64,000 nucleotides of DNA. Origin: an uncultured Eudoraea sp. (GTDB taxonomy: Bacteria > Bacteroidota > Bacteroidia > Flavobacteriales > Flavobacteriaceae). Shown here in pieces: positions 20,634 through 39,099 of the stretch. Location: assembly GCF_947260015.1 (NCBI RefSeq), contig NZ_CAMYOM010000012.1, positions 1-64,000 on the forward strand. The letters run 5' to 3'. A program made the position numbers and the translations under genes. Every line of letters starts with the position of its first letter. The stretch's first letter is position 1. The notes under the pieces are model-generated. The model had not been told where the DNA came from and ran no database searches. It saw nothing but the letters and a program-made list of their open reading frames with translations.

Positions 20634-21293
20634 CTAAAGGTTGGTTGAATCTTCTTCATCCGTTTCTTTGTGGAAAATCAAATCCTGTTCCTCCATGGCA
20701 AAAACCACGAGTTTTATATAGTCATCTATTGCCTTTTTAGTATTTGAGGGATCTGTTATATCTATAATACCACGCCATATGAGTTGTCGTTCCTTCCCTA
20801 CACATATACAATAAAGTGAAGTCTCAGCATGATAGACCTTATACTCATCATAATAATTCTCATCATAATAAATATCCTGATGTGATATATAATCGTCTTT
20901 GAATTTAGCATTAAAATTATCTATATCTGTTATCTCCTTCCTAAAGGTCTCCTTATTTTCAGCACCCAGAATTTTGGTAAATAAAATGGCATCAAAATCT
21001 TTATCCAGAAGTGATTGTTCAACATCATCGAGTTCTTCTTCTGACCTTTCAGAATCAGTAAATCCAACATCAAATAAATCCACACTTCGCATAGCCTCCA
21101 CTCCCCTTTTGGAAAAATGCCTTTTCATTTTAGTTTCAAATTCTTCCTGAGCTTTAGAATTAGCAGTCATCCCCACAACAAGTACTTTATTGGCGTCAAA
21201 AATTATAATGTCCGGATTTTTCCAATTATCTACCAATTCCGAGGACGAACATCCCATGAATAATAATGCAACTAAAGTAAGTGCTTTCTTCAT
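20634..21293 (-). CDS. Lipoprotein of unknown function
   Basis: 219 aa. The lipoprotein signal peptide ends in LLFMGCSSS (Cys15). The mature start, DNWKNPDIIIFDANKVLVVGM, resembles DUF4136-like envelope lipoproteins. The remainder is hydrophilic with a strongly acidic C-terminus. It is 10 bp downstream of the first ~145-aa paralogue gene and shares its dyad-controlled promoter, so it is the last gene of the stress island. Confidence 0.7.
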   Translation of the reverse strand: MKKALTLVALLFMGCSSSELVDNWKNPDIIIFDANKVLVVGMTANSKAQEEFETKMKRHFSKRGVEAMRSVDLFDVGFTDSERSEEELDDVEQSLLDKDFDAILFTKILGAENKETFRKEITDIDNFNAKFKDDYISHQDIYYDENYYDEYKVYHAETSLYCICVGKERQLIWRGIIDITDPSNTKKAIDDYIKLVVFAMEEQDLIFHKETDEEDSTNL

Positions 21294-21303
21294 ATGCTTT
21301 TAA

Positions 21304-21747
21304 TTAATTTAATAATCGCTTTTGTTTCTCCTTCTTTAGCACATTTGAAACTAAATCAAAAAGTTTGGTTTTAATTTCCCTGTATTCTTCTTTATAATGA
21401 TCCATGCTGCTGGCCAATTCTCTGTGGGTATCGCGGTAAGCCTTTTCCAATTCTATTTGATCAACGTCATCAATCATTAATTCTAATTTATTTTCATGAG
21501 CCTGAACCTTTTTCATAAGAGCAATGACTTGTTTCTCCAGATCAGTAAGAGCAGTTACAATTGCTTTACTTTTTCCAAAAATTTTTATATCAACCAATTG
21601 TACGGTATAATGTTTTATAAGATTGTTTAAAAACAATTGTTCATCTTTCATAAATCTTAATTCCGATAGCCATAGTAGGCTTGTTCTGTGCATCTCTTCC
21701 GGATCTATCCATTCAATATAACGATGCGCGTTTTCTTTAATTTTCAT
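21304..21747 (-). CDS. Stress-island paralogue family member 1
   Basis: 147 aa, all helical with coiled-coil character, no membrane segment. It shares a pattern with the proteins at 21854-22279 and 38650-39099: W-x2-(E/S)-L/F-x-F-(M/L)-(K/N)-D-E-x-L-F-(L/I) near residues 26-40, a middle H-x-N-(K/N)-L segment (HENKLELM), and a C-terminal helix ending after an E-(I/V)-x-x-x-(L/I/F) stretch. I do not recognise the family. It heads a two-gene transcript with the lipoprotein gene 10 bp downstream, behind a promoter with the island dyad (21818-21831). Confidence 0.65.
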   Translation of the reverse strand: MKIKENAHRYIEWIDPEEMHRTSLLWLSELRFMKDEQLFLNNLIKHYTVQLVDIKIFGKSKAIVTALTDLEKQVIALMKKVQAHENKLELMIDDVDQIELEKAYRDTHRELASSMDHYKEEYREIKTKLFDLVSNVLKKEKQKRLLN

Positions 21748-21787
21748 TTTGTTAAATTTTATAATAGTGAATATGTATTATGTGATT

Positions 21788-21831
21788 CCAATTTAGTTTT
21801 TTATAAAAACAAAAGAAATGATAATTATCAG
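21788..21831 (-). promoter_or_regulatory. Dyad plus -7 promoter for paralogue 1 and lipoprotein
   Basis: On the minus strand the dyad CTGAT-AATT-ATCAT (21818-21831) is followed after exactly 22 bp by TAAATTGG (21788-21795), a -7-like element. Inferred transcription start is near 21783, giving a leader of about 36 nt. Confidence 0.7.
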
Positions 21832-21853
21832 GTAGCTATTATGCCTGTTAGGA

Positions 21854-22279
21854 TTAATTATAGTCGGGTCTTCTTTTTTTTAAAATACCACCCGCATAAT
21901 TGAATATCTCCGACTTTAAGATTTGAAACTTCTGTAAACAATTTGCCACATTGGCCTTAAGCTTCTCATGTTCCATATAAACGTCTTCATCCCATTTGCT
22001 GTTTTTACATTCAATGGACCCTCCAAGATTATTTTCATGGTGTATTAAAAGTTTCTGCATATTTGTCTTATCACCTTTAATATGCTTCAGACGCTCAAGA
22101 TAGTCTTGTAAACGCTCAAACAAATTAGGCGTGTTGGGCTCAAATACATAGGAGTGAAGTAGTTGTTCTATGAATAATAATTCATCGTTCATTAAGAAAA
22201 ATGAAGATTTCCATTTCTGTGTATCTAAATGTAATTTTTGCAGAGTATCCAGTTTATTATTTGCAGTTTGATCTTCCAT
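21854..22279 (-). CDS. Stress-island paralogue family member 2
   Basis: 141 aa, helical, cytoplasmic. Segments shared with its two paralogues are WKSSFFLMNDELLFIEQLLHSY (about 20-41, given here as the aligned core), HHENNLGG in the middle and LQKFQILKSEIF near the end. Pairwise identity is low but the spacing of the W, DE-L-F and HxNNL motifs is conserved. It has its own promoter with a perfect island dyad. The function is unknown; strict co-occurrence with Usp genes suggests a stress role. Confidence 0.65.
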   Translation of the reverse strand: MEDQTANNKLDTLQKLHLDTQKWKSSFFLMNDELLFIEQLLHSYVFEPNTPNLFERLQDYLERLKHIKGDKTNMQKLLIHHENNLGGSIECKNSKWDEDVYMEHEKLKANVANCLQKFQILKSEIFNYAGGILKKRRPDYN

Positions 22280-22304
22280 GATTGATTTTTAATCCCATTT
22301 CTTT

Positions 22305-22348
22305 TAAAACTACTCCTGATCTGAATTACGAGCAATGATAAAAATCAT
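22305..22348 (-). promoter_or_regulatory. Dyad plus -7 promoter for paralogue 2
   Basis: The perfect dyad ATGAT-N4-ATCAT at 22335-22348 lies 22 bp upstream of TAGTTTTA (22305-22312) on the minus strand. Inferred transcription start is about 22300, with a leader of about 21 nt before the ATG at 22279. Confidence 0.8.
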
Positions 22349-22355
22349 GTGAATG

Positions 22356-23720
22356 TTAAAAAATAAGTTCAACCGTTTCAAATATTTCAGGAATATGCAC
22401 ATGCCATTTATATACATCTGAAATTTTAATTTTAAATTCTAGTAGGGCTTCCTGCTCTCCATGAATCAAAAAAACACGCTCCGGAATATTTTTAATAGAA
22501 TCCATCCAGTCTATTAACTCTTTTTGATCTGCATGGGCTGATAAGCTTTCTTCGTGATGAATACTGGCTTTCACTGCATAGTATTTTCCAAAAATCTTAA
22601 GCTCCTGAGCCCCTTCCAAAAGTGCTCTTCCTCGCGTTCCCTCAGCCATATAACCAACCAATAAAACATTGGTATTCGGATTATCTACCAATTGTTGTAA
22701 ATAAGTGAGAATTCTTCCACCTGAAACCATTCCGCTTCCGGCAATAACAATTTTTGGTCTGGGATCGTCTATAGTTTCCCATGTTTGTCTGTAGGAGTCT
22801 ATAATATTTACGTGGGCACACATCGCCTTATATTCCTTTGGAGATAACTTATGCCAATTTGGGAAACGTTCGAATATGGAAAGTACGTTGTTGCCCATAG
22901 GGCTATCAATAAAAATGGGAATATTTGGTATTTTATTCTTCCTATAAAGCTTCCAGAATAAATACATCAGAGATTGCAGACGTTCTACAGCAAAAGAAGG
23001 GATGAGCAGGTTTCCTCTTTCATATAATGTTTTATTGACCAGGGCGACCAATCTATCCTCCACATTATCTTGTGGGTGCAATTTATTGCCATAAGTGCTT
23101 TCAATAAAAAGAAAATCGGCCCACTCAGGTTTTACCGGTGGATCTAACAAAATATCATTTGGCCTCCCTACATCTCCGGAAAAAATAAAACGCTTTCCGG
23201 AAATTTCTATTTCGATAAAAGTTGAACCAATTATATGCCCGTTATACCTGAATCTATACCGGATATTTTCAGTAAGTTGTGTCCATTGGTTTAATTCTTC
23301 AGGTCTAAACAGAGCTATTGCATTTTCTGCATCCTTTATGTTATAAAGTGGCAGCGCTGGCCTATGCTTACTATACCCCTCCTTATTTGCTAATTCTGCT
23401 TCTTCCTCATTTATCTTTGCACTATCGAGCAATATTATTTTTGTTATGGCAAGTGTAGGGGCAGTTCCTATAATTTTACCATTAAATCCGTTTATTACCA
23501 ATCTGGGTAAATAACCCGTATGATCAAGGTGACCATGTGTCAATAAAACAACATCTATTGAGTCTGCCGAAAAAGGTAATGGTTCCCAATTAGATTTTCT
23601 TAGGTCCTTCCTGCCCTGAAACATCCCGCAATCTATGAGAATGTTTGGCTCATCTGTTTCAATGCAAAATTTAGATCCTGTGACCGTACCCGAAGCCCCT
23701 AAAAAATGTACTTTAACCAT
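22356..23720 (-). CDS. Beta-CASP metallo-beta-lactamase RNase
   Basis: 454 aa, full length for the family. Metal-binding motifs: THGHLDH near residue 60, the GDVG motif near 180, and late histidines in SLSAHADQ and IHGEQ. The beta-CASP insert includes the motif around SGMVSGGRI. These proteins are zinc-dependent endo/exo-ribonucleases related to CPSF73, often called RNA metallo-hydrolases. It is third in a likely operon (18 bp after the ATP-cone/PDDEXK gene), all behind the dyad promoter at 25097-25140, so RNA turnover may be part of the stress response. Confidence 0.88.
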   Translation of the reverse strand: MVKVHFLGASGTVTGSKFCIETDEPNILIDCGMFQGRKDLRKSNWEPLPFSADSIDVVLLTHGHLDHTGYLPRLVINGFNGKIIGTAPTLAITKIILLDSAKINEEEAELANKEGYSKHRPALPLYNIKDAENAIALFRPEELNQWTQLTENIRYRFRYNGHIIGSTFIEIEISGKRFIFSGDVGRPNDILLDPPVKPEWADFLFIESTYGNKLHPQDNVEDRLVALVNKTLYERGNLLIPSFAVERLQSLMYLFWKLYRKNKIPNIPIFIDSPMGNNVLSIFERFPNWHKLSPKEYKAMCAHVNIIDSYRQTWETIDDPRPKIVIAGSGMVSGGRILTYLQQLVDNPNTNVLLVGYMAEGTRGRALLEGAQELKIFGKYYAVKASIHHEESLSAHADQKELIDWMDSIKNIPERVFLIHGEQEALLEFKIKISDVYKWHVHIPEIFETVELIF

Positions 23721-23738
23721 TATCTCGAATTAATTGCA

Positions 23739-24581
23739 TCAAAGCTTGCAAAGCTTGCCTACCTCGTTTAGAATTTTAGTTTTCCTTATATCCGAGACGC
23801 CTAAATGGTCGAGATAAAAACTATCTTTTAATAATTGACGACATAGGACTACATCACGGCTTAGCAAAAATTGTTTCTCTCTTTTGGTCAAAAGTGTTGA
23901 AACTGTTATGGGATATAGACCCAGTCTGTCTATTCGATCTTTTAAACCATCCCCTTTCGGATAATCCCAGCTCAGAAGATAGAGCCCCATGCAATTACCA
24001 TATATTTTGGCATCTTTAGTAAAACGTGTATTGGTAACTACCCAGCATTCATCTGGCTCCTTAATAATTGAAATATCTTTATACCTTGAATTTTTTATAT
24101 CCTGATATCTGGAATAAATATATAATGGAATCTTAACATTACAATTGCGACCTTGTTCTCCATGAAATTTGCATTCAATAATTATGATAGATCCGTTTTT
24201 TTCGGAAATCACATCTATTTCATGGCTCACGCATTTCCCTGTAACAGTCTTGCCAACCTGAATTTTGTATCCCGAATATGTTAATACAGCACCTAAAAAC
24301 CTTTCAAACGGAAAACCTGTTGGACCCAATTCATATATGGCCTTTTTAAGTTTATATTTTGAAGCGAAAACCGGTTTGTTGCGTCTTAAAAAACTATAGG
24401 CCCGATTATATAATTCTTTGGTTGTGATTCCATCATATAATTCATCCTTTACAAGAGTCAAGATTTGAGAGATCATTTTATCGTCTGCGCCGCTTCGTTT
24501 CAGCGACGTGCGTAACTTCTCTTCTGAGAATAACACTTTGTCACCCGAAGCCTTAACTATAAGAAAATCTTCATTTGCCAT
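23739..24581 (-). CDS. ATP-cone plus PDDEXK nuclease-like protein
   Basis: 280 aa. Residues about 5-90 are an ATP-cone domain (VKASGDKVLFSEEKLRTSL start), the allosteric nucleotide-sensing domain of ribonucleotide reductases and NrdR. It is followed by a Mrr-like PDDEXK nuclease core: HEIDVI with D123, then E136-C-K138 in IIIECKFH. The tail (about 180-280) is an extra helical region. The fusion suggests a nucleotide-gated nuclease. It lies between the eRF1-like gene (42 bp upstream) and the beta-CASP RNase gene. Activity on DNA versus RNA is not predictable. Confidence 0.75.
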   Translation of the reverse strand: MANEDFLIVKASGDKVLFSEEKLRTSLKRSGADDKMISQILTLVKDELYDGITTKELYNRAYSFLRRNKPVFASKYKLKKAIYELGPTGFPFERFLGAVLTYSGYKIQVGKTVTGKCVSHEIDVISEKNGSIIIIECKFHGEQGRNCNVKIPLYIYSRYQDIKNSRYKDISIIKEPDECWVVTNTRFTKDAKIYGNCMGLYLLSWDYPKGDGLKDRIDRLGLYPITVSTLLTKREKQFLLSRDVVLCRQLLKDSFYLDHLGVSDIRKTKILNEVGKLCKL

Positions 24582-24623
24582 TATAAGCGATAATTGAGAT
24601 GGTCTCCATAGATTTGTAAAATC

Positions 24624-25040
24624 TTAAACTCTGCTTTTTTTATTAAAAAATTCCCTGACCAGGGCTTTGACCTGATTTTCGGTCATACTATCTACTTTCT
24701 CTACGGTCTTAACTTTTAATGCCAGGTTTTTATGATTTTCATTTAATTCCTTGTAAAATTTGGTATTGGTATCTCCAGGGCCAAAAATTGCTATGGCTTC
24801 TGCATTTTTCATGGTCTTTGCCAATTCCTTAAAATACGATTTCAATTGGTGTTTCTCTCTTTCCAAATATTTGCTATCCTGTACCACATCCTGCGGACCC
24901 CATTTGGTCTTAGAGCGTGCTCCGCCTTTTGGGTGAAAAAACTCAATCTCTGAAGTAATAGTCCTGAAACTTACATCTTCATTTTTTAAGGTAACCAAAT
25001 GTGCCTTTTCTTTATCTAACCAAATTCCTATTTTCTTCAT
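24624..25040 (-). CDS. eRF1/host-attachment-like small protein
   Basis: 138 aa. It begins KKIGIWLDKEKAHLV and contains IAIFGPGDTNTKFYKEL, a layout resembling the RNase H-like/eRF1 domain 2-type fold in bacterial host-attachment and VLRF1-like proteins. The assignment is tentative. No membrane or signal sequence. It is first in the three-gene operon with the ATP-cone nuclease and the beta-CASP RNase; if related to eRF1, this would be consistent with ribosome-linked RNA cleavage. Confidence 0.55.
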   Translation of the reverse strand: MKKIGIWLDKEKAHLVTLKNEDVSFRTITSEIEFFHPKGGARSKTKWGPQDVVQDSKYLEREKHQLKSYFKELAKTMKNAEAIAIFGPGDTNTKFYKELNENHKNLALKVKTVEKVDSMTENQVKALVREFFNKKSRV

Positions 25041-25096
25041 GGATATATTATTATAAATTAGTATTGACTATATCGTTCAGAATTATCATGACTATA

Positions 25097-25140
25097 TAAA
25101 ACTAAATCCAAACTATGACTTATCATATGATGTTGATCAG
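25097..25140 (-). promoter_or_regulatory. Dyad plus -7 promoter for eRF1-like/nuclease/RNase operon
   Basis: On the minus strand CTGAT-CAAC-ATCAT (25127-25140) is followed after 22 bp by TAGTTTTA (25097-25104). Inferred start is near 25092, leader about 52 nt. The dyad overlaps the last codon of the Usp gene upstream. Confidence 0.75.
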
Positions 25141-25985
25141 TCAGTATATGGGAGAATGAGAAAGGGTATTTCAATATTAAAACTTACTTTCTCAATTACC
25201 GGTTCACGGGTTAATTTCTCCAAAAAACCGTGCTGGTAATGAATCATTACCAGCATATCTATACCCAATTCATCAATAAAATTTGTAATCGCGCTGGATT
25301 TATTAGAAAAATCAGGCATCCAATGAATAGAATGTTTTATTGGTCCCAAATACTCTCTAAGGGTATATAAATTAGACTTCTGAACAGGGCCGAGTCTTTC
25401 TTCTTCATTTATATGAACAATACAAACAGAAGAATCACAATTTCTGGCAAATGTCAGCAGAGGCTGTAACAATTTAGCGTTATAATTCTTTTTATAGTCC
25501 GTAGCAAAAGCAATCTCTTTAGGTAACACAAATTCCTTTTCACCTGGTATGGTTAATATTGGACAATCCTTGATACCGTTTATGGATTTGATCACATTGC
25601 TGGCTAAAAAAATGGATTTGGCCCCGGTCTTCCCTTTATTCCCCATTACAACAAGATCTGCGTTGGTTTCTTTAATGGCCTGCTGTAGAGCATCAATTAG
25701 ATTTTCATTTTTAGAATGAATACTAAAATGATGCTTACTATTCGCGATATCAAGATTAATCCTATGTAAAAAAGAATTTAAACCCTCCAGAGACTCCTCA
25801 CCCAGTTGTTGTAACAAACTTAAGTTTCGCCCTGCAGCCTGGGAATTACTTTTTAGTGGGGTATGCTCAGTATAAGCATTGAGAATATGGAATGAACAAT
25901 TGTGATTTTTAAACAATTGGGTGGTGTAAAAAAGTGCATTGTAAGCATTGTTTGAAAAATCTGTGGCAATAAGAATATTTTTCAT
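25137..25985 (-). CDS. Tandem universal stress protein (Usp 1)
   Basis: 282 aa, two Usp domains (about 1-140 and 150-282). The first domain keeps the nucleotide loop start GNKGKTGAKSIF but has FLASN where active members have LGS, so ATP binding may be weak; the second domain lacks the loop. Usp proteins bind ATP/AMP and support survival of stasis and hypoxia. It is the third of three Usp genes in one operon, 18 bp after the previous one. Confidence 0.9.
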   Translation of the reverse strand: MKNILIATDFSNNAYNALFYTTQLFKNHNCSFHILNAYTEHTPLKSNSQAAGRNLSLLQQLGEESLEGLNSFLHRINLDIANSKHHFSIHSKNENLIDALQQAIKETNADLVVMGNKGKTGAKSIFLASNVIKSINGIKDCPILTIPGEKEFVLPKEIAFATDYKKNYNAKLLQPLLTFARNCDSSVCIVHINEEERLGPVQKSNLYTLREYLGPIKHSIHWMPDFSNKSSAITNFIDELGIDMLVMIHYQHGFLEKLTREPVIEKVSFNIEIPFLILPYTD

Positions 25986-26003
25986 TGAATTTTCAGATTT
26001 ACA

Positions 26004-26837
26004 TTACGGAATAACCATAAAAGGAATGCTAACATGAAACCCTATTTTCTTAATAACTGGTTCTATAAAAAGACTTTCCAAAAAGGTGTGTTTGTTCTGT
26101 ATCATTGCCAACATGTTCATCTTGTTTTTTAGTTGGAAATTATTTATTCCTGTTATGATTTCCTGATTTGGGAGGTCATGGAACAAATGAGGGATTTTTT
26201 CTAATATTTTTTCCAATTTAGCCTTATTTTGCAATTGAAGATCGGTAAGGTCATAGCCGCTTGAAATATGAATGACTTCAACACTGGAATTGTGTATTTT
26301 GGATAAATTAAGAAGACCCGCTAATTGTGTTTCACTGTACTCAACTTCATAGTCCGTTGGAAAGAGTATTTTTTTGGGTATTTCATATTTAAAATCCGCA
26401 GGAATTGCAATCACAGGGCAGGTAGCTTTTTTAATAACATGCACCGTATGTGTGCCCAGAAAGATTTCTTTTGCACCGGTTGCTCCCTGAGTACCCATAA
26501 TAACCAAATCAGCTTCTTCGCTTGCAACCATTGCAGCTACTTCATCAACAAGGATATTAAAAGCAGAATGTGGTATTATAGTGTGTTTTGGATTCTTAAA
26601 CTCTTTTTCAAGTTGCTTTTTCAGTTCTTCCAGTTGATTTATAGATTCTGATTGGTAAATATCTCCAAGACCAATTTGACCGGGGCTGTGCAACAAATAT
26701 TCTGTTTGATAAATAGCCGGTGTATAGGTATTCATAAGATAAAAAGTTGCCTTCTCATCTTTTAAGAGGTTCATAGCATAAGAGATAGCGTTATATGCAT
26801 TATAGGAAAAATCGGTAGGAAGAATTATTTTTTTCAT
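26004..26837 (-). CDS. Tandem universal stress protein (Usp 2)
   Basis: 277 aa, two Usp domains. The first has a complete nucleotide motif of the form G-x2-G-x9-G-(S/T): GTQGATGAKEIFLGT. The second is degenerate (LAMIQNKHTFLESLF in its place), a pattern seen in nearly all Usp proteins of this island. It is second in the three-Usp operon, 18 bp from each neighbour. Confidence 0.92.
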   Translation of the reverse strand: MKKIILPTDFSYNAYNAISYAMNLLKDEKATFYLMNTYTPAIYQTEYLLHSPGQIGLGDIYQSESINQLEELKKQLEKEFKNPKHTIIPHSAFNILVDEVAAMVASEEADLVIMGTQGATGAKEIFLGTHTVHVIKKATCPVIAIPADFKYEIPKKILFPTDYEVEYSETQLAGLLNLSKIHNSSVEVIHISSGYDLTDLQLQNKAKLEKILEKIPHLFHDLPNQEIITGINNFQLKNKMNMLAMIQNKHTFLESLFIEPVIKKIGFHVSIPFMVIP

Positions 26838-26855
26838 CAGTACTTATTTTAAATG

Positions 26856-27701
26856 TTAACGGGACAGATTTTGTAAAACCAAAAATGGGATTTTTATGTG
26901 TAAACCTATTTTTTCAATAGTGGATTGATGCAACATTTGCTCAAGATGTGAATGTCTGGAATTGACCATTACCAGCAGGTCTATTTCTTTGTGGACAATA
27001 TATTTTGTGATGGCAATGGTTTTATCCTTCCCTTCTGTTGTTTCAAAAAACAAGTTGGCCTTGTACAAACATTCTTTTAAAAATCGCATATTGTCTTCCT
27101 GCCGAAATGAAAGTTTCTTATTAGAATCTATATAAAGCATATGAATAGATGACCTATAGGAACCTGTTAGTTCACACAGTAGTTTTAATTCCCTCCTTTT
27201 ATGAGGTACCAAATAATCTGAAGGAAACAAAAGTTCTTTTGGCTGATGGTATTTGTAATTTTCGGGAATTGCAAGTACAGGGCATTGCACGTATTTCAAA
27301 ACCTGAATAGTCTTACTTCCGAAGGTTATTGTTCTATCATTAGTTTCACCCCTTGTGCCCATTATCACAATATCTGCATTCTCCATATTTATAAGATCGT
27401 TGACCTCATCAGTAAGTGTTCCAAAAGCCGAAATAGGTTTGAACTTATGCTTTGGATTAGGCGAATACTCAAATATGTCCTTTAAAATTTTTGCCAGTTT
27501 TTTTTCAGAATCCTTATAGGTTACCTCCTTTAACTCATCTAACTTACTTCGCACTACCTCCTGGTCTTGTTGGTATACCTCATCTGCATACGCGTGTAGA
27601 ATAAAAAAGTCACATCTTGTGTACTTGAATATTTGACAGGCATATTTGAGTGCATTAAATGCATTTTTAGAAAAATCTGTGGGCACTACAACTTTCCTCA
27701 T
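26856..27701 (-). CDS. Tandem universal stress protein (Usp 3)
   Basis: 281 aa, two Usp domains. The first domain holds GTRGETNDRTITFGS, matching G-x2-G-x9-G-S; the second is degenerate (MVNSRHSHLEQML). It is the first gene of the three-Usp operon and its promoter shares a single dyad with the divergent thioredoxin gene. The leader is predicted to be about 21 nt. Confidence 0.92.
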   Translation of the reverse strand: MRKVVVPTDFSKNAFNALKYACQIFKYTRCDFFILHAYADEVYQQDQEVVRSKLDELKEVTYKDSEKKLAKILKDIFEYSPNPKHKFKPISAFGTLTDEVNDLINMENADIVIMGTRGETNDRTITFGSKTIQVLKYVQCPVLAIPENYKYHQPKELLFPSDYLVPHKRRELKLLCELTGSYRSSIHMLYIDSNKKLSFRQEDNMRFLKECLYKANLFFETTEGKDKTIAITKYIVHKEIDLLVMVNSRHSHLEQMLHQSTIEKIGLHIKIPFLVLQNLSR

Positions 27702-27726: not shown

Positions 27727-27770
27727 TAAAATTAATACTAAGCAAGACAAGAAACCATGACATTAATCAG
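27727..27770 (-). promoter_or_regulatory. Shared dyad, leftward promoter for Usp 3-2-1
   Basis: The dyad at 27757-27770 (ATGAC-ATTA-ATCAG on plus) reads leftward to TAATTTTA at 27727-27734 after exactly 22 bp. Inferred start is near 27722. The same dyad also fits the rightward promoter of thioredoxin at the same spacing. Confidence 0.8.
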
Positions 27771-27800
27771 TTACTGAATTCCATAACTTTTCTAAATTAG
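27757..27800 (+). promoter_or_regulatory. Shared dyad, rightward promoter for thioredoxin
   Basis: From the dyad at 27757-27770, 22 bp rightward leads to TAAATTAG (27793-27800), one mismatch from TAnnTTTG. Inferred start is near 27805, leader about 16 nt. One symmetric site would thus activate two divergent transcripts. Confidence 0.75.
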
Positions 27801-27820: not shown

Positions 27821-28120
27821 ATGAAACAAAATTTTGAAAAATTAACAGCTGGCAATATTCCTGTTCTTGTAGATTTTTATGCAGATTGGTGTGGGCCCTG
27901 CAAAATGTTGGGACCTATCCTTAAAAAGGTAAAAGAAGAATTGGGAGATAAAATCAAAATTATTAAGATAGATGTAGATAAAAATCAATCTATTGCCTCT
28001 AAATATCAGGTTAGAGGTGTTCCAACAATGCTGCTATTCAAGGATAAAAAGCAAGTATGGAGGCAATCGGGGGTATTACCTAAGGAAGAATTAATTAATA
28101 TCATTGAATCCTATAGGTAA
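27821..28120 (+). CDS. trxA: Thioredoxin
   Basis: 99 aa, cytosolic. The redox motif is W-C24-G-P-C27 in the context DFYADWCGPCKMLGPIL, with the cis-proline in VRGVPTMLLF. Slightly short at the N-terminus against Escherichia coli TrxA (109 aa). It reduces protein disulfides. It is divergent from the Usp 3-2-1 operon and shares its dyad, tying redox repair to the Usp response. The housekeeping thioredoxin is probably elsewhere; the trxA symbol is by family, not by proven orthology. Confidence 0.9.
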   Translation: MKQNFEKLTAGNIPVLVDFYADWCGPCKMLGPILKKVKEELGDKIKIIKIDVDKNQSIASKYQVRGVPTMLLFKDKKQVWRQSGVLPKEELINIIESYR

Positions 28121-28208: not shown

Positions 28209-29048
28209 TCACTCGTGCAATACCAAAAATGGGATATCTGTATGGTAACTAATTTCTTCTACGGCGGGCCTGAAGAGGATTCGTTGAAAAAAGTTTAGAT
28301 TTTTGGCCACCATGGCTACAAGATCAATATCTCTGCTTTCAACAAAACACTGAATCGAAGTTTCCAATTTGGAACCGGTTAAAGAATGGAAACTATGGTC
28401 AATTCCCCTCAAATAATCGTGTAAAAAATCTTTATTACTCAATTGTTCTTCACTCAGCATTTCACCTTTTTTTGAAATATGGACAACTCTTAATATAGAA
28501 TTGTTCATTGTGGCCATCTCAACTAGATTATCCAAGACCTTAATATCGTAGGCGATATGAAAATCCGTTGGGAAGGCAATTTCTTTTGGTGTTTTATAAG
28601 TAGAATTTTCCGGCACCGCGAGTAAAGGACATTTTACTCTAGTAATCACATCGCCAGTATTACTTCCCATTGAAACTTTTTTAAGTCCGGTTGCACCTTT
28701 AGTACCCATGATAATCAGGTCAATCTTTTTGTCTTCCACTGCTCTCTTTATGCTATCTACAAAAAAATCATACTTTGCCATGGAAACATAAGAATGTAAT
28801 TCATTTTTATGATGTTCTTCAATATAATTCAAAAGTTTTTTAAGGTCTTTTTTACTCTCAGTCAAAACGGTTTCCCTAAGCAGGATCGAGGTGCCTTTAA
28901 CTGAAGACCCGGCACCTGAATATGGGGGGATCGGGTTGATGTGAATAATGTGAAAAATACATTTGGTTTTTTTAAATAATTCGAGCCCGTAATTAATGGC
29001 ATTACGAGAATTTTCGGAAAAATCTGTCGGGATTAAAATACGTTGCAT
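28209..29048 (-). CDS. Tandem universal stress protein (Usp 4)
   Basis: 279 aa, two Usp domains. The first keeps GTKGATGLKKVSMGS, a full nucleotide-binding motif; the second is degenerate (MVAKNLNFFQRILF). Single-gene transcript with its own perfect dyad promoter (29071-29114), located between thioredoxin and the receiver-Crp regulator. Confidence 0.92.
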   Translation of the reverse strand: MQRILIPTDFSENSRNAINYGLELFKKTKCIFHIIHINPIPPYSGAGSSVKGTSILLRETVLTESKKDLKKLLNYIEEHHKNELHSYVSMAKYDFFVDSIKRAVEDKKIDLIIMGTKGATGLKKVSMGSNTGDVITRVKCPLLAVPENSTYKTPKEIAFPTDFHIAYDIKVLDNLVEMATMNNSILRVVHISKKGEMLSEEQLSNKDFLHDYLRGIDHSFHSLTGSKLETSIQCFVESRDIDLVAMVAKNLNFFQRILFRPAVEEISYHTDIPFLVLHE

Positions 29049-29070: not shown

Positions 29071-29114
29071 TAAAACTACGATCACCAATTGAACCATAAA
29101 ATGATTATCATCAT
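29071..29114 (-). promoter_or_regulatory. Dyad plus -7 promoter for Usp 4
   Basis: ATGAT-N4-ATCAT on plus (29101-29114) faces leftward to TAGTTTTA (29071-29078) after 22 bp. Inferred start is near 29066, leader about 18 nt. The dyad lies 28 bp beyond the stop of the regulator gene, so it is not part of that operon's own promoter. Confidence 0.8.
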
Positions 29115-29141: not shown

Positions 29142-30200
29142 TCAATCGGGAATCTTTTGTAACCGATCCATATCTAAAATTTTAATATCTCTATCTTTAA
29201 TCTCAATTATACCTTCTTTCTTAAATGCAGATAAAGTTCTAATAAGAGTTTCAGTAGCCATTCCGGCAACACTTGCAAGGTCACTCCTTAAGACGTGAAT
29301 ATTTCCGGCTTCATCCTCCTGCAACTTTTCGGTAAATTTAAGTAAAGTAGACGCAGTTTTTTTTCGCACAGAACCATATGCCATCTGCAACAACTGCTCT
29401 TTGATCTGAGATAGGTTTTCCGACAAAAGTTGCAACAACTCCATTACCAATTCCCCATTATGCTCCAAAACCATTATTAATTTATCCTTATTAAGGCCAA
29501 TTAAGACAGAATCCTCCATAGCTGTGGCATATTCCTGGTATGGTATATTCTTAGTGAAACTGGTAAATCCAAAAAAATCATCTGCTTTGTAAATTCCTGT
29601 TATCAGCTCTTTCCCCTGCTCATCAAGTTTATGAGTTTTAGCATTCCCCTTTATTACCAGATACACCAAATTTGAGTTATCGCCCTCCCTGTAAATTGAT
29701 TCCCCCAAATTAAACCTGAATTCCTCGCCGTTGTCATCAATAAAATTCTTCAGCTGATGAATACTCTTAACTCTGGCTTCACTTGCTAAATCATCGTATA
29801 ACTTTTCTTGTTGTGCTTCTTTAAGAATACTGGACTTGGCTATCCTACTCTCAATAGCACCAATAAGTTCAGATTCTTCAAATGGTTTAGTCAGGTAGTC
29901 ATCAGCACCCATATCCATACCCTGCCTAACATCCTTTCGTTCTGTTTTAGCAGAGAGAAATATAAAAGGAATTGACTTGGTCCTATTATCTTCGGACAGG
30001 GCGGTAAAAACACCATATCCATCTAACTTTGGCATCATAATATCGCATAAGATAACGTCCGGGAGACTAGTTTTGGCAACCAATACTCCCTTTTCCCCGT
30101 CAGGAGCGCTAAGGACTTTGTAATGTGCTAATTCCAATAATTCGGCTGTATTCTCCCTTAAAGCAGTATCATCTTCAATTAATAAAACCTTTTTGATCAT
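29142..30200 (-). CDS. Response regulator, receiver plus Crp/Fnr DNA-binding
   Basis: 352 aa. Domains: receiver (1-125) with acidic pocket E9-D10-D11, phosphoacceptor D53 in LCDIMMP, S83 and K105 in TKPFEES; cyclic-nucleotide-binding-like beta roll (about 150-265); Crp-type winged helix (about 275-345). The recognition helix reads ATETLIRTLSAF with E317 and R321 in the register of Fnr E209/R213 and Crp E181/R185, residues that read the TGA core of half-sites. It lacks the Fnr iron-sulfur cysteines, so the receiver rather than a cluster is the likely input. It follows the LOV kinase gene by 52 bp. Best candidate to bind the island dyads. Confidence 0.9.
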   Translation of the reverse strand: MIKKVLLIEDDTALRENTAELLELAHYKVLSAPDGEKGVLVAKTSLPDVILCDIMMPKLDGYGVFTALSEDNRTKSIPFIFLSAKTERKDVRQGMDMGADDYLTKPFEESELIGAIESRIAKSSILKEAQQEKLYDDLASEARVKSIHQLKNFIDDNGEEFRFNLGESIYREGDNSNLVYLVIKGNAKTHKLDEQGKELITGIYKADDFFGFTSFTKNIPYQEYATAMEDSVLIGLNKDKLIMVLEHNGELVMELLQLLSENLSQIKEQLLQMAYGSVRKKTASTLLKFTEKLQEDEAGNIHVLRSDLASVAGMATETLIRTLSAFKKEGIIEIKDRDIKILDMDRLQKIPD

Positions 30201-30252: not shown

Positions 30253-32148
30253 CTAGTATTCTTCGCGATTGTCATCAAGAGGCAGTTCTATCGTGAATTT
30301 ACTCCCCTTGTTTTCCACACTTTTAAAGCTAATATTCCCTCCCAGGTTCTCAACATGCGATTTTACAATATTCAGGCCTATACCGGTACCTTGAGTCAGC
30401 AGTACATTGTCTGCCCTAAAGTAAAGGTTAAATATATGCTTTTGGTCTTCTTTCGGAATACCAATGCCTTTGTCAATAACATGAAAGCGAATATTATCTT
30501 CATTAATTTCAATCTCTAAATCTATTTCAGTTTCTTCAGGAGAATACTTAATTGCGTTATGTAACAAATTGGTTAATGCCAATGAAATAATCTTCTCATC
30601 CTGATGTATTGTAAGATCCTCTATATTAAGGGGATAATTAATTTTTTGACCTGTTTTTAGTAGCATATTCGCATTGTAAATTACCTCATTAACAACTTTA
30701 CTAAGCGAAAAATCATTAAGTCTATAAACTTCCTTTCCCTTTTCTAATCGCTCAATAGATAAAAAATCATTCAATATTCCGGTAAGATGATGTACACCTG
30801 TTTTAATAGATTTTAAATGTTTAAACCTGATATCCTGCTGTTCAGTAGTTGTATATTTACCAACCAATGTGGCTGAGGTAAGGATAGTGCTTAAAGGAGT
30901 TTTAAACTCGTGAGAAACCAAGGAAAGGAATTTGGTCTTTAGATTGTTCAGTTCTTTTTCTTTAACCAAGGCTTCCTTTAGTTCCTGTGTTCTTAATGCA
31001 ACTGTTTTTTCCAGTTTTTGAGTATAATTTTTCCGTTCAGATATATCAAGGACAATAGCAACTATCAATTTCCTATTTCCCAGACTCGAGGATTGCAAAT
31101 GAACTTCTACCGGATACTTTGAGCCATCCTTTCGCCTTATTTCTGTTTCAATCTGAATTTTCTTATTGGAGTTTAACTGAATAGGATCGATTAAGTTTCG
31201 GAATTTTTTTTCAGAGATGTCGGCCAGTAACTCTTTAGTAGTAATCCTTTTAATCTCTCGGATAGTATAACCAGTATTTTTCTGTGCCCCATAATTCACA
31301 TGAGAAAACATGAGGGTTATCGCATCAAAAACATAAATCTCGTTAAGTGATTCATCAAAAATATTTAAAAAATGGCGTATTTCCTCCTCGGCCTTTACAC
31401 GGTTGGTCAAATCATTCTGTATCCCTATAAAATGAGTTATCTTACCTTCCCGATTTCGTATTGGTGTAATGGAAACTTCGTTCCAGAATAAAGTACCATC
31501 TTTCTTGTAATTCCTCACCTGAACCCTGCATTTTTTACCTGCTCTTATGGCCTTGTGCATTATTTTAACGCCTCTTTGGTCATTATCGTCTTTCTGGAGG
31601 AACCTGCAATTTCTATTTAGGGCTTCAGATTCTGAATACCCGGTAAGTTTCCTAAATGCCTTGTTCACATATATAATAGGATGATCCTCTTTTAATGCAT
31701 CTGAAATGACGACACCATTTTGGGTGGCGTCCAATGCTTCACCTTTTACAATTAAGTTTTCTTCAATCTCCTTTCTTGCAGACAAATCATGAACCAATGC
31801 AAGAACATAGGTTTTTTTATATATAGAAAAAGGATTAAACCTCACATTTAAAGGAAATTCCTCGCCGGATTTTCTCTGCCCTCGTACACATCGCCCCCCG
31901 GCCATTGCTTCCTTCCTTACATGTTTGTAATATTCAATAACATGCTCTTTATGTGCATTTTTATACTTATCCGGGATTAGCAGGGATAAGGGTCTTCCTA
32001 AAAGTTCATTATTGGAATAATCAAAGAGCCGTGCTGCTTTTTTATTAATCGAGACAATTAACTGATCCTGACTAACCACTATTATTCCCTCCGATATAGC
32101 TTCCGAAAGTAAATGGAAAATATTAATATTCTTATCAAAAACATGCAT
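30253..32148 (-). CDS. LOV-domain photosensory hybrid-PAS histidine kinase
   Basis: 631 aa, no membrane segment, so cytosolic. Domains: PAS (about 10-125); LOV (about 132-250); PAS (about 255-372); HisKA with H413 in LSLVSHEFKTPLS; ATPase with N531, G1 box D559-KGIG and G2 near 586-591. The LOV core has N180-C181-R-F-L-Q185, N213, N223 and Q244. The spacings C-32-N-10-N-21-Q equal those of Avena phototropin LOV2 (C450, N482, N492, Q513), so the residues for flavin adduct and chromophore contacts are all present. It is likely blue-light-sensing and phosphorylates the receiver-Crp protein encoded 52 bp downstream. Confidence 0.92.
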   Translation of the reverse strand: MHVFDKNINIFHLLSEAISEGIIVVSQDQLIVSINKKAARLFDYSNNELLGRPLSLLIPDKYKNAHKEHVIEYYKHVRKEAMAGGRCVRGQRKSGEEFPLNVRFNPFSIYKKTYVLALVHDLSARKEIEENLIVKGEALDATQNGVVISDALKEDHPIIYVNKAFRKLTGYSESEALNRNCRFLQKDDNDQRGVKIMHKAIRAGKKCRVQVRNYKKDGTLFWNEVSITPIRNREGKITHFIGIQNDLTNRVKAEEEIRHFLNIFDESLNEIYVFDAITLMFSHVNYGAQKNTGYTIREIKRITTKELLADISEKKFRNLIDPIQLNSNKKIQIETEIRRKDGSKYPVEVHLQSSSLGNRKLIVAIVLDISERKNYTQKLEKTVALRTQELKEALVKEKELNNLKTKFLSLVSHEFKTPLSTILTSATLVGKYTTTEQQDIRFKHLKSIKTGVHHLTGILNDFLSIERLEKGKEVYRLNDFSLSKVVNEVIYNANMLLKTGQKINYPLNIEDLTIHQDEKIISLALTNLLHNAIKYSPEETEIDLEIEINEDNIRFHVIDKGIGIPKEDQKHIFNLYFRADNVLLTQGTGIGLNIVKSHVENLGGNISFKSVENKGSKFTIELPLDDNREEY

Positions 32149-32196: not shown

Positions 32197-33033
32197 CTAG
32201 ACCTTAAAAGTAATCACAGGTAAATTCGCGTGATTCACCACATCTTCACCAATGCTTCCTTTAAAAAAATGCGCTATTCCGCTTCTTCCATGGGTAGGAA
32301 TCGCTATTAAATCGGCCTGTACATCATTCGCATGATTAAATATGCCTCTCTCAATTGAGTAATCTGAGACATAAATCATTTCAGTATTAGAGGGAACGGC
32401 ACCATTATGGGCAACTTTAAGGAAAAAATCTGCTTTCTTTTTAATCTCTCCTGAGCTCATGAATTCTTCATTAGGTAAATTAACATATACCAGATGAAGC
32501 TTAAGGTCCCAATTCTCAAAAAGAGCCCTTGCGCTATGGTATGCTTTAATACTCTCTACCCGAAGATCACAAGCATAAACAACTAATTTAGGAGTGAACA
32601 AAGGAGATGGTTCTTTTATTACCAAAACAGGAATATCAGAGGAACGCACTACCTTTTCAGTATTGGATCCTACAAAAATTTCACTAACCCCACTTGCCCC
32701 ATGCGAGCCCATAATTATCAGGTCAATGTTGTTTTCTTTGGCTACCTCATTTATTTCACTGAAGATCTTATAGTTTTGAACCATTTCGGTAACCTTAACA
32801 CCTTTTAAAAATGGTTTATTTAAAAAAGTTTCGTAACGCTTTCTGGCCAATTTCATATAAAAGTGCGCCTCTGCGGCTTCCTCAGATTCACTTTTGCTTA
32901 AGTAGGCTTCAGACAGACCCATCATATGAAGTACAATAATCTCTGCACTAAAATCCTTTGCCAGTTTAGCAGCGACTTCAACTGCATATCCTGCATGTTC
33001 CGAAAAATCTACGGGGACTAATATTTTTTTCAT
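32197..33033 (-). CDS. Tandem universal stress protein (Usp 5)
   Basis: 278 aa, two Usp domains, and the only one in the island in which both domains keep the nucleotide motif (GSHGASGVSEIFVGS in the first, PTHGRSGIAHFFKGS in the second). It is thus the best candidate for true ATP binding. It lies between the HPF gene (24 bp upstream) and the LOV kinase gene (48 bp downstream), so it probably shares their transcript. Confidence 0.92.
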   Translation of the reverse strand: MKKILVPVDFSEHAGYAVEVAAKLAKDFSAEIIVLHMMGLSEAYLSKSESEEAAEAHFYMKLARKRYETFLNKPFLKGVKVTEMVQNYKIFSEINEVAKENNIDLIIMGSHGASGVSEIFVGSNTEKVVRSSDIPVLVIKEPSPLFTPKLVVYACDLRVESIKAYHSARALFENWDLKLHLVYVNLPNEEFMSSGEIKKKADFFLKVAHNGAVPSNTEMIYVSDYSIERGIFNHANDVQADLIAIPTHGRSGIAHFFKGSIGEDVVNHANLPVITFKV

Positions 33034-33057
33034 GGTAGTTTAATTAAAATATCTTAT

Positions 33058-33357
33058 TCAATACTTTTTAAAAATTTCTTTTCTCTTTTTGAGCTGGTTT
33101 TCTAATTCCTTTATTGTCGTGGCCGCGGCCTTTTCAAAATTATCCTGATTAGATTTAGCAAATAACCTGGGACCGGGTGCACTTAATCGTATTTCACATA
33201 TTTTACCTAAACCAGATGGGTCATTTTCTAATTTAAAAAAGACATCTGCCTTAATAATCCAATCATATTTATTTGCCAGTTTTTCTAACTTAGAAGTAAT
33301 AATAGCACTCATAGATTCACTCGTTGGCATTTGAACATATTGAATATTTATTGTCAT
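33058..33357 (-). CDS. HPF/RaiA-family ribosome hibernation protein, short form
   Basis: 99 aa from the ATG at 33355-33357 (MTINIQYVQMPTSESM). An ATG 13 codons upstream (33396) would lie upstream of the inferred transcription start, so it is rejected. The beta-alpha-beta-beta-beta-alpha pattern (SAIITSKLEKLANKYDWII, KICEIRLSAPGPRLFAKS, AAATTIKELENQLKKRKE) fits short HPF/YfiA proteins that bind the 30S subunit and silence it in stasis. It is first gene of the operon with Usp 5, the LOV kinase and the regulator. Confidence 0.82.
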   Translation of the reverse strand: MTINIQYVQMPTSESMSAIITSKLEKLANKYDWIIKADVFFKLENDPSGLGKICEIRLSAPGPRLFAKSNQDNFEKAAATTIKELENQLKKRKEIFKKY

Positions 33358-33381
33358 AATTATATTATTTAGAGTTTGTAA

Positions 33382-33425
33382 TAAAGATCGCACCATGCTA
33401 TATGGTAAACTATGACATTTATCAT
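33382..33425 (-). promoter_or_regulatory. Dyad plus -7 promoter for HPF-Usp-LOV kinase-regulator operon
   Basis: Dyad ATGAC-ATTT-ATCAT on plus (33412-33425), then 22 bp leftward to GATCTTTA (33382-33389), seven of eight against TAnnTTTA. Inferred start near 33377, leader about 20 nt. Because the regulator is the last gene of this operon, autoregulation is implied. Confidence 0.75.
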
Positions 33426-33855
33426 TTTTGATTGTTGTCTAGTTATAATAATTCAGATATACTATCCACTAAATTAGAGATACTAATTAACCTGGCCAAA
33501 AACGAAAAGTTAGTAGATTAAAACCTAAGTCCATTGCTCTCTTTAAGCAAGACAATAAGGACTCCCGGTATGATTACATTTTTACTAATATTCTGACCCA
33601 AAAGAGTAAGACAGAATGGTGCCTGTGAGAATACAAGATCGGGAAAAAAAAGAATTGGCAGACGCTATCTGATCATCGATATCAAGTATTAATCCCAGGA
33701 GTGTTTTTTTCTGGCCAGACCGATAGTGGACCCTACAATGATTAAAATCATTTGTGTTACTTAACAATGCAAGTAGTTTTGTTTTTTAATAGATAGTCAT
33801 CAGAAATCTAAGAACTTTCTTGGTGAACTGAATATGAGCATCTTTATTAATTGTT
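33397..33855. other. Divergent promoter region of the island centre
   Basis: This 459-bp spacer separates the HPF operon (minus) from the LytTR/exporter operon (plus). It contains two dyads, at 33412-33425 and 33738-33751, each facing its own operon. About 300 bp between them show no gene that I can support. Confidence 0.6.
33738..33781 (+). promoter_or_regulatory. Dyad plus -7 promoter for LytTR/exporter operon
   Basis: Perfect dyad ATGAT-TAAA-ATCAT (33738-33751) followed after 22 bp by TAGTTTTG (33774-33781), an exact match to the Bacteroidota -7 element. Inferred start near 33786, leader about 70 nt, longer than for the other island genes. Confidence 0.8.
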
Positions 33856-34560: not shown

Positions 34561-34597
34561 CAAGTAAATTCAGACCCAATAACTCAAAATAAGCTTA

Positions 34598-36960: not shown

Positions 36961-36969
36961 TTCACAATT

Positions 36970-37644: not shown

Positions 37645-37668
37645 ATCTTAAATTACTAAGTCCTGACT

Positions 37669-38502
37669 TTAGGAATTATAGCAAAGTATTGGAATAGTGA
37701 CTAAGGTCTCCATTTTTTTTATAATATCTTTATTAAAAATAGAAGAAAAGAGACCATTATTTTTTCTTTCCAACATCCCTAATAAATCTGCATTCTCATC
37801 CTTTATATGCTTCCTTAAGCCTTGTGCTATACTATTGGCCAGTACCATGTGAAAACTTATTTTTTTGTACGGCACCTGAACTTCCAATAATTCTTTAAAC
37901 CATTCCATCTGTTGCATGGCACCATATTCCTCTAAAGTAGGAATATGCACTACTTCTATTTTAGCATCATAATATTCCGCTATTGCAGCTAATTTTTCTA
38001 TGGCAATGATATCCGAAGATTCAAAATCACTGGCATAAGCAATCCTTTCTATCCCTTTATAGCTATATTGAGGAGGAATAATTAGTATTGGGCAAAGGTT
38101 TTTATCTATTAATTTATTCGCAATATTTCCACTAAAGAAACCTCGTGAAGAATGTTCATCTTTCATTCCTATGACCAGCAAATCTATTTTTGATTTACTT
38201 ATTCTGTCAACAATTCCTTTGCTTATTGATGTGTTTTGAGCAACCTCATATAATGGTTGATTTTTACTTAAATTTTGATTTAGGTTTTTTCGGCAATAGT
38301 CTTCCAGTAATTCTTTATGCTCATTCATTGCCAATTTATTTAATTGTTCAGGCGACCTAATATTGGATGTTCTTACAGGCGGAATATCATATATGTGAAG
38401 TACAACCAGTTTGGCTTTTACAGTTTCGCTGAGATTCAAAGCATAGTCTAAAGTTGAGATCGAATTTTTGGTGCAATCCGTGGCATAAAGAATAGTGTCC
38501 AT
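37669..38502 (-). CDS. Tandem universal stress protein (Usp 6)
   Basis: 277 aa, two Usp domains. The first has GMKDEHSSRGFFSGN, in which the second Gly of the nucleotide motif is Asp, so binding may be lost; the second is degenerate. It is transcribed alone from a promoter with the dyad at 38555-38568, back to back with the third ~145-aa paralogue. Confidence 0.9.
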   Translation of the reverse strand: MDTILYATDCTKNSISTLDYALNLSETVKAKLVVLHIYDIPPVRTSNIRSPEQLNKLAMNEHKELLEDYCRKNLNQNLSKNQPLYEVAQNTSISKGIVDRISKSKIDLLVIGMKDEHSSRGFFSGNIANKLIDKNLCPILIIPPQYSYKGIERIAYASDFESSDIIAIEKLAAIAEYYDAKIEVVHIPTLEEYGAMQQMEWFKELLEVQVPYKKISFHMVLANSIAQGLRKHIKDENADLLGMLERKNNGLFSSIFNKDIIKKMETLVTIPILCYNS

Positions 38503-38524
38503 AACAATTCATTTAAATAATAAG

Positions 38525-38568
38525 TCAATTTACTTCATTTCAGATCTGCATAACATGATTTTGGTCAC
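38525..38568 (-). promoter_or_regulatory. Dyad plus -7 promoter for Usp 6
   Basis: On plus, ATGAT-TTTG-GTCAC (38555-38568), the most diverged site; leftward 22 bp gives TAAATTGA (38525-38532). Inferred start near 38520, leader about 18 nt. A second dyad 12 bp to the right serves the divergent gene. Confidence 0.7.
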
Positions 38569-38579
38569 AAAAGCTCTAC

Positions 38580-38623
38580 ATGACTTATATCATAAAAATT
38601 TGTCATGAACTAAACTATTTTTA
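38580..38623 (+). promoter_or_regulatory. Dyad plus -7 promoter for paralogue 3
   Basis: ATGAC-TTAT-ATCAT (38580-38593), then 22 bp to TATTTTTA (38616-38623). Inferred start near 38628, leader about 22 nt to the ATG at 38650. Here two neighbouring divergent genes each have their own dyad, unlike 27757 where one site serves both. Confidence 0.8.
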
Positions 38624-38649
38624 ATATCCAAACCAAAAGGAAATTTGTC

Positions 38650-39099
38650 ATGGATAGCAGCAATAAATCAACTCAGCAAAATAAAATTGGAGAAGTAAAC
38701 TGGCAAGAACTTTATATTCTTACAGATCATTGGAAGTCAGATCTGGAATTCTATAAAGACGATCTCAGGTTTTTACATCATTTGATTGATAAATATATTA
38801 TCTGGATTACAAAAGACGATAACCTTAACCTGGTAAAAAATATACAGAAAAACCTTTTTGAGATTCGGAAAAAAAGTATGGATCTAATGAGGGAAGTTAA
38901 CACACACCAAGGGAATTTGGGCCTTATGGTAGAAAATCCGGTTCAGAGTTCAAACCCCCAATTTATAGATGATCACGAAGATCTGGAAGATAAAATGTCA
39001 AAATTTGTAAAACTGTTTAGGTCCAATCGAAAAGAAGTATTTAGCATAACGGAATACATCATAGACAGCGAGGAATTACCAAATATTCTTAAAAACTAA
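38650..39099 (+). CDS. Stress-island paralogue family member 3
   Basis: 149 aa, helical and hydrophilic. It shares with the two proteins at 21304 and 21854 the W-K-S-D-L-x-F-Y-K-D-D-L-x-F-L block (about residues 27-42), a middle HQGNLG (about 85-92) and a C-terminal FRSNRKEVFSITEY helix. It lies 16 kb from its paralogues, at the opposite end of the island, but again behind an island dyad. The family is unknown to me. Confidence 0.65.
   Translation: MDSSNKSTQQNKIGEVNWQELYILTDHWKSDLEFYKDDLRFLHHLIDKYIIWITKDDNLNLVKNIQKNLFEIRKKSMDLMREVNTHQGNLGLMVENPVQSSNPQFIDDHEDLEDKMSKFVKLFRSNRKEVFSITEYIIDSEELPNILKN

Follow-up and report, generated by a model that had tools for sequence, protein, structure and literature searches.

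Escherichia coli FNR and Pseudomonas DNR act from the class II position and have targets of the cbb3 and hemN type, features that recur in the regulon proposed here. In rhizobia, the FixL-FixJ-FixK system consists of the PAS kinase FixL, a receiver and a Crp/Fnr output with cbb3 as a target, and in mycobacteria DosR is a NarL-type regulator with the GAF-heme kinases DosS and DosT. Rv2629 is induced by hypoxia according to the portion of PMC10901736 that deals with it. In the sections of PMC1274295 on these site families, the FNR/DNR box is TTGATnnnnATCAA, with a TGAT-N4-ATCA core, and HcpR and HcpR2, of the Crp/Fnr family, have N4-spaced dyads given as TTGACnnnnGTCAA and GTAACnnnnGTTAC, respectively. 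Here we consider a 64-kb window (the whole stretch of DNA analyzed, from an uncultured Eudoraea sp. of the Flavobacteriaceae) that carries an island of 21 genes between 20634 and 39099 preceded by a composite promoter element, a dyad of the form ATGAYN4RTCAB placed 22 bp from an octamer resembling a −7 box. This element probably marks a class II low-oxygen/dormancy regulon that is read by two proteins, an FNR-like protein and a kinase-linked fusion of a receiver with a Crp/Fnr module.

The first-pass annotation of the window listed nine dyads, and a plus-strand search with ATGAYN4RTCAB returns these nine and no others. On both strands the dyad has 16 matches, a figure that counts perfect palindromes twice, compared with a mean of 1.67 and a largest value of 9 in 100 dinucleotide shuffles of the window; the unlisted dyad places, at 16238 and 19244, are within coding open reading frames (ORFs). 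The octamer 22 bp away had been described for all ten promoters, and this stands for nine of them, where TAnnTT is present, while the octamer belonging to the dyad at 33412, GATCTTTA, lacks the TA. All ten have TT at octamer positions 5 and 6, and the dyad at 27757 does have octamers on both sides, TAATTTTA and TAAATTAG. The window holds 9 composite units where 0.07 would be expected, with a shuffle maximum of 2, and none lies outside 21.7–38.7 kb.

Each promoter of the island consists of a dyad, N22 and an octamer, given here in that order. On the minus strand, the promoter at 21788..21831 (CTGATAATTATCAT, TAAATTGG; dyad at 21818) precedes the gene at 21304–21747 and, by operon inference, 20634–21293; that at 22305..22348 (ATGATTTTTATCAT, TAGTTTTA; dyad at 22335) precedes 21854–22279; and that at 25097..25140 (CTGATCAACATCAT, TAGTTTTA; dyad at 25127) precedes 24624–25040, followed by operon inference by 23739–24581 and 22356–23720. 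The dyad CTGATTAATGTCAT at 27757 serves a minus-strand promoter (27727..27770, TAATTTTA) before a universal stress protein (Usp) gene at 26856–27701, with 26004–26837 and 25137–25985 added by operon inference, and on its other side a plus-strand promoter (27757..27800, TAAATTAG) before the thioredoxin gene at 27821–28120. Farther along the minus strand, 29071..29114 (ATGATGATAATCAT, TAGTTTTA; dyad at 29101) precedes the Usp gene at 28209–29048, and 33382..33425 (ATGATAAATGTCAT, GATCTTTA, with a weak −7 box) precedes the HPF gene, from which operon inference extends through a Usp gene, the kinase and the regulator to 29142. The plus-strand promoter at 33738..33781 (ATGATTAAAATCAT, TAGTTTTG) stands before a LytTR gene, behind which operon inference places HlyD, FtsX and ABC genes as far as 37644. 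Finally, 38525..38568 on the minus strand (GTGACCAAAATCAT, TAAATTGA; dyad at 38555) precedes the Usp gene at 37669–38502, and 38580..38623 on the plus strand (ATGACTTATATCAT, TATTTTTA) precedes 38650–39099.

The element recurs throughout the genome (3.42 Mb in 98 contigs), where TGAYN4RTCA-N23-TANNTT, in which N23 expresses the same 22-bp spacing, has 62 matches and the reversed pattern has 2. When gaps of 7–37 are allowed, 21 of 29 strict-palindrome matches fall at 22, and when half-site spacers of 0–14 are allowed, N4 accounts for 33 of 42. Among the 62 units, which include near-copies (C8/C63, C20/C45, C42/C43), 45 are 0–80 bases before an ORF and 11 are farther away; 3 overlap an early ORF start, 1 ends a base inside and 2 are followed by no ORF within the sequence inspected. 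Four are flagged within ORFs, C13 and C20:17294 in long ones, C37 and the 21790 unit of the window in short ones. On the distal side, the base before TGAY is A in 36 units, C in 21, G in 5 and T in none. Only 9 of the 62 units are in the island, so the regulon cannot be equated with it as the first-pass annotation had done, although the 21-gene island is the largest cluster of units found. A second dense cluster (L057, G000:C41:1-13561) has seven composite units within 13.6 kb, alongside genes for a Usp, a baeRF release-factor relative, an M50 protease, a flavin reductase and MlaE.

The octamer consensus of the 62 units, TAnnTTT(G/A), is close to the sigma-A box of Flavobacterium psychrophilum, TAnnTTTG at −12 to −5 in the promoter data of PMC9723704. 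If this published position is combined with the N22 spacing, the dyad would lie at −48 to −35 with its center at −41.5, and this arithmetic, together with the fixed spacing to the −7 box, favors the class II Crp/Fnr layout that had been proposed for these promoters. The same study reports, in its expression results, that cbb3 is induced at low oxygen, and a word search of its main text does not return “Fnr.” The sections of PMC8510549 on Crp/Fnr homologs of the Flavobacteriales treat them with a MalR matrix and contain no motif of the present kind. In the open-licence literature, a search that left most subscription papers outside it, we found no described low-oxygen operator for Flavobacteriaceae.

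Conservation was followed in the best 80 of 281 loci of relatives (1.48 Mb, the nearest labeled Eudoraea), a sample that favors the island of the fusion because the loci are centered on the fusion gene. Across these loci, 142 of 294 dyad-strands have TAnnTT at a distance of 22 bp, and the remaining offsets in the range 0–60 have 0–8 apiece, which upholds the conservation expected of a real element. Counted by dyad, 124 of 147 have the −7 box on at least one side and 18 on both (28 other offsets have a mean of 3.1 and a maximum of 7), and N4 half-site spacing gives 147 dyads where other spacers give 3–20. Phylum-wide, in a sample of 148 genomes, matches are present in 15 of 15 from the family, 2 of 2 from the order and 38 of 131 others, five of which have at least 3 units (G268 with 9, G195 with 6, G225 and G244 with 4, G280 with 3). 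G268 and G195 belong to the same class and to other families, and their 9 and 6 units exceed the near-zero background. Across 149 Flavobacteriaceae genomes, our own included, there are 1440 composite matches and 65 for the reversed control.

Orthologs (matches with at least 35% identity and half of the query covered, best at their place) have the composite before the lead Usp gene (26856) in 44 of 47 cases, the Usp gene at 28209 in 60 of 66 and HPF in 33 of 40, as well as before the 141-amino-acid gene at 21854 (11/13), the 149-amino-acid gene at 38650 (6/6), the LytTR gene (3/3), the Usp gene at 37669 (3/3), the 147-amino-acid gene at 21304 (8/15) and thioredoxin (11/43). For the 138-amino-acid lead gene (24624), the 80 loci offer 17 usable orthologs, none of which has it directly in front; the ortholog in genome G052 (L203) has a composite before it. 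Internal genes largely lack a site of their own (beta-CASP 0/29, nuclease-fold 0/32, regulator 0/79, kinase 0/49, HlyD/FtsX/ABC 0/23), the exceptions being the Usp genes at 32197 (14/46), 26004 (5/35) and 25137 (1/20) and a 219-amino-acid gene (2/17). That ten promoters cover 21 genes depends on operons inferred where intergenic gaps are short; the relatives mostly agree, the main exceptions being the internal Usp gene at 32197, which often has a composite, and the 138-amino-acid gene, which leads but has none in the 80 loci.

The genome encodes six HTH_Crp_2 proteins, of which two have the recognition helix A-x-E-x-x-I-R, the fusion in the window and an FNR-like protein on contig C3; the other four differ. 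The fusion (29142..30200, minus strand; 352 amino acids) joins a receiver (PF00072), a cNMP-binding fold (PF00027) and HTH_Crp_2 (PF13545) and is the candidate activator encoded in the island. Its D53, K105, A315, E317, I320 and R321 are identical in all 80 aligned rows (of 81, one short row having been dropped), and the same recognition residues are present in all 21 FNR-like proteins sampled (20 plus our own), with isoleucine where E. coli FNR has S212. Cysteines C7, C10, C56 and C109 are likewise present in 21 of 21; C7, C10 and C109 have cysteines opposite them in the FNR chain, whose third N-terminal cysteine, presumably C29 of FNR, aligns with an asparagine. “FNR type regulator” chains are matches 2–7 of the FNR-like protein in the PDB (E 9e-24 to 8e-23), and its nearest neighbor by blastp among the five other Crp/Fnr proteins is the fusion (E 1e-23, compared with 2e-11 or weaker). 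A small unrooted tree gives three groups, the fusions, the FNR-like proteins and the other four, from which a sister relationship of the first two cannot be read. Contig C3 carries both the FNR-like gene and ccoS.

The distribution of the two proteins was compared with site numbers over the 149 genomes. The thresholds for presence (1e-50 for FNR, 1e-70 for the fusion) were set after seeing the tables, and the values show a wide gap for the fusion and less of one for FNR, with G040 (1e-51) and G018 (1e-43) at the borderline. Genomes with both regulators (43) have a mean of 17.9 sites (range 6–34), those with FNR only (54) have 6.9 (0–26), those with the fusion only (31) have 9.1 (1–25, with at least 4 in 27 of 31) and those with neither (21) have 0.8 (0–3), while the means for the reversed pattern are 0.14–0.59 across these groups. 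Compared with genomes that have neither, p is 2.8e-9 for fusion only and 1.7e-8 for FNR only in tests that ignore genome relatedness. Since site means with one regulator exceed the mean with neither, either regulator alone appears enough to keep the operators.

Sites were inspected in six of the eight single-regulator genomes among the 12 whose places were listed, two with the fusion only (28 sites) and four with FNR only (39 sites), leaving out G063, G143 and two sites of G041 (C2:701384, C9:12533). Sites before ccoS occur in five of the six, fusion-only G124 and the four FNR-only genomes, and not among the six sites of fusion-only G024; Usp sites number three in fusion-only G124 and one in FNR-only G092, and HPF has a site in fusion-only G024 and in FNR-only G092. 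The base after the dyad is A at 24 of 39 FNR-only and 10 of 28 fusion-only sites, and the octamer begins TAATTT at 18 of 39 compared with 4 of 28 and TAAATT at 2 of 39 compared with 7 of 28. Any functional split between the regulators is weak, with hemN as a possible exception.

The candidate partner of the fusion is the adjacent histidine kinase (30253..32148, minus strand), which by Pfam has three PAS regions, HisKA and HATPase, and together with the receiver D53 and K105 it completes the features of a two-component system. The seven best PDB matches of its first PAS are FixL chains, and FixL, DosP or related heme-PAS proteins make up 13 of 20 matches at E <= 0.01; for the PAS of a relative's short kinase, FixL/DosP-type heme-PAS matches are 13 of 14. 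A histidine and an arginine of the first PAS align with those of FixL that we take to be the heme ligand and the distal arginine. In the alignment of 77 of 79 kinases, two short ones having been dropped, 73 retain the histidine and 53 the arginine; another alignment, of 23 long kinases, gives 20 and 15. Oxygen as the common signal is suggested by this FixL-like PAS, the phospho-acceptor of the fusion, the FNR-like cysteines and the targets.

The low-oxygen theme is suggested by target content. Among targets outside the window that we named from their sequences alone are presumed ccoS (cbb3 oxidase), oxygen-independent hemN, PPDK, KorA-type (2-oxoacid) and NifJ-type (pyruvate) ferredoxin oxidoreductases, a ferredoxin and Usps. 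Of the 53 units beyond the window, 30 had their next ORF compared with Pfam, which adds a c-type cytochrome, a Pyr_redox_2 flavoprotein, a multihaem cytochrome, a YgaP-like protein, a flavin reductase, a baeRF-type release-factor relative, MlaE and CBS proteins, and the targets in the window are six Usps, HPF, thioredoxin, a beta-CASP hydrolase and others. The first-pass annotation spoke of a “stress regulon,” but respiratory and fermentative genes are among the targets elsewhere, and we therefore prefer to call it a low-oxygen/dormancy regulon.

In the mechanism that we propose, a Crp/Fnr dimer on VTGAYN4RTCAT, centered 41.5 bp before the start, would touch RNA polymerase on a TAnnTTTR −7 box, each unit would be an activator-dependent promoter of the main sigma factor, and about 60 such promoters would make up the low-oxygen/dormancy regulon of a Eudoraea-like flavobacterium. 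The same sites would be read by two regulators. The FNR-like protein, with its four conserved cysteines, would presumably be a direct iron-sulfur (Fe-S) oxygen sensor, and the fusion would presumably be phosphorylated by the neighboring kinase with its first PAS similar to the heme PAS of FixL and DosP; the fusion may also reinforce itself, since its own operon has such a site, weak here and better in relatives. The sites, their spacing and conservation, the targets and the co-occurrence with either regulator are observations; binding, activation, the oxygen signal, heme, the Fe-S cluster and phosphotransfer are what we infer from sequence. A number of observations pull the other way. The aligned arginine is missing from 24 of the 77 kinases, and invariant C56 may or may not replace the missing third cysteine. 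Many targets have no clear link to oxygen (a CarboxypepD_reg fragment, TPR proteins, DUFs). The octamer at 33412 is weak in this genome, is not TAnnTT and overlaps the first-ATG ORF call, the HPF gene probably starting at the ATG at 33357. Other Crp/Fnr paralogs may be readers as well. The genomes compared share ancestry, for which the tests make no correction; of the 21 genomes with neither regulator, 12 are at most 2.2 Mb, though the nine larger ones still have 0–3 sites. Four FNR-only genomes (G023, G085, G107, G112) have no sites and 19 of 54 have fewer than 4, so the presence of FNR alone predicts the motif poorly, and hemN has sites in all four FNR-only and neither of the two fusion-only genomes inspected.

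The first-pass annotation had one activator driving the whole island, which is doubtful now that each of two Crp/Fnr proteins sharing their recognition residues is seen to accompany the motif in the absence of the other, and the fusion as the only reader is weakened by the same comparison (FNR-only mean 6.9, neither 0.8). If instead the FNR-like protein were the sole reader and the fusion a passenger with other targets, the classic FNR-type targets ccoS and hemN would be expected in the set, as they are, and immediately past the FNR gene there is a unit in front of a Usp gene; we nevertheless find this improbable, as 31 fusion genomes without an FNR ortholog (by threshold) have a mean of 9.1 sites compared with 0.8 for neither, and fusion-only G124 has ccoS and ferredoxin promoters. 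A division of labor, with the fusion directed to the Usp/HPF island and FNR to respiration, seems to us unlikely but the least so of the alternatives. It would account for the encoding of the fusion within an island whose lead-gene sites are well conserved, for a mean with both regulators (17.9) close to the sum of 6.9 and 9.1, for the hemN sites and for the slight differences between groups in the base after the dyad and the octamer. It is harder to reconcile with the HPF and Usp sites of FNR-only G092, the release-factor-like gene of FNR-only G052, the ccoS and KorA/ferredoxin sites of fusion-only G124 and the fact that an identical dyad search pattern finds sites in both groups.

A general stress or light regulon with no tie to oxygen is again a poor prospect, on a par with FNR as sole reader. 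Usps dominate the island, and the second PAS of the window kinase is LOV-like, with the motif NCRFLQ and LOV-type chains as best PDB matches; of 78 relatives, 9 share this motif with the window kinase, but the other 69 lack it, and five of the six inspected genomes have sites before ccoS. Chance or AT-rich composition can be set aside almost entirely in view of 9 units against 0.07 in window shuffles, 62 against 2 in the genome and 1440 against 65 in the 149 genomes. Beyond the two-reader regulon that we favor, a more elaborate version can be put forward tentatively, with a little less than even confidence: the Flavobacteriaceae may have a single promoter code and two interchangeable oxygen readers that differ in chemistry, an Fe-S FNR and a fused FixJ/FixK driven by a heme kinase, of which one or the other is lost in lineages that keep the operators, such that the regulon outlives its regulator, with LOV light input added to the kinase in some lineages.

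Two island proteins, HPF and a release-factor-like protein, may have a bearing on dormancy. The HPF gene (S30AE; 33058..33396, minus strand) matches PF02482 at E 1.1e-15 and scores 40.1 bits with TIGR00741, whose cut-off is 40.9, and three Usp genes (PF00582) lie at 25137..27701 on the minus strand. The 138-amino-acid protein at 24624..25040 (minus strand) resembles a stand-alone middle domain of aeRF1/Balon, with a weak match to NF052287 (E 0.00095). Its model, of moderate confidence (mean predicted local distance difference test score, pLDDT, of 70, with stretch 35–55 poorly modeled), has 32 PDB matches at E <= 0.001, mostly titled eRF1, aRF1, Pelota or Balon, although the titles of 9i2d, 8ip8, 6xa1, 4d5n and 3vmf do not name the chain; against the human eRF1 middle domain the template modeling scores are 0.64/0.65. 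Its consensus keeps GG near a possible GGQ loop with no Q after it, a position that is inferred within a poorly modeled loop.

By profile matches, a beta-CASP metallo-hydrolase and an ATP-cone/Mrr-type nuclease-fold protein are encoded at 22356..24581 on the minus strand. The latter (23739–24581) has homologs in 33 of the 80 loci and the beta-CASP protein in 31. The best NCBIfam score of the beta-CASP protein (22356–23720) is to the type VII Cas14 model, at 389 bits with a cut-off of 800, too low for an assignment to Cas14. The proteins of 141–149 amino acids at 21304–21747, 21854–22279 and 38650–39099 look alike by eye, with 18% identity to the 21854 protein in a joint alignment; the model of the 141-amino-acid protein is a three-helix bundle (pLDDT 85) with no PDB match at E <= 0.001. 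A tRNA-Leu (gag) gene lies just past the island, at 39234–39318.

If this interpretation is correct, the fixed-spacing motif would let the regulon be read directly from many genomes of the family, and the two candidate regulators that it names would show in nature how one regulator can replace another while the operators are conserved, with Usps, HPF and release-factor-like proteins tied to one switch in a phylum distant from the mycobacteria. Compared with E. coli FNR and Pseudomonas DNR, the present dyad has the core TGAT-N4-ATCA in common, but it is not the TTGAT box, since the base before TGAY is never T in the 62 units. HcpR likewise combines an N4 dyad with a Crp/Fnr protein, as here, but the outer base is different and its targets are hcp-centered. 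The FixL-FixJ-FixK system has separate FixJ and FixK, whereas here receiver and Crp/Fnr domains are one protein, and this fusion would leave no separate step from FixJ to FixK. Like the DosR regulon, the present one places Usps, HPF and a Balon-type protein under what would be a two-component system linked to oxygen; the output domain is NarL/LuxR-type there and HTH_Crp_2 here, and the likeness that we draw is one of regulon content, with no claim of homology between the regulators.

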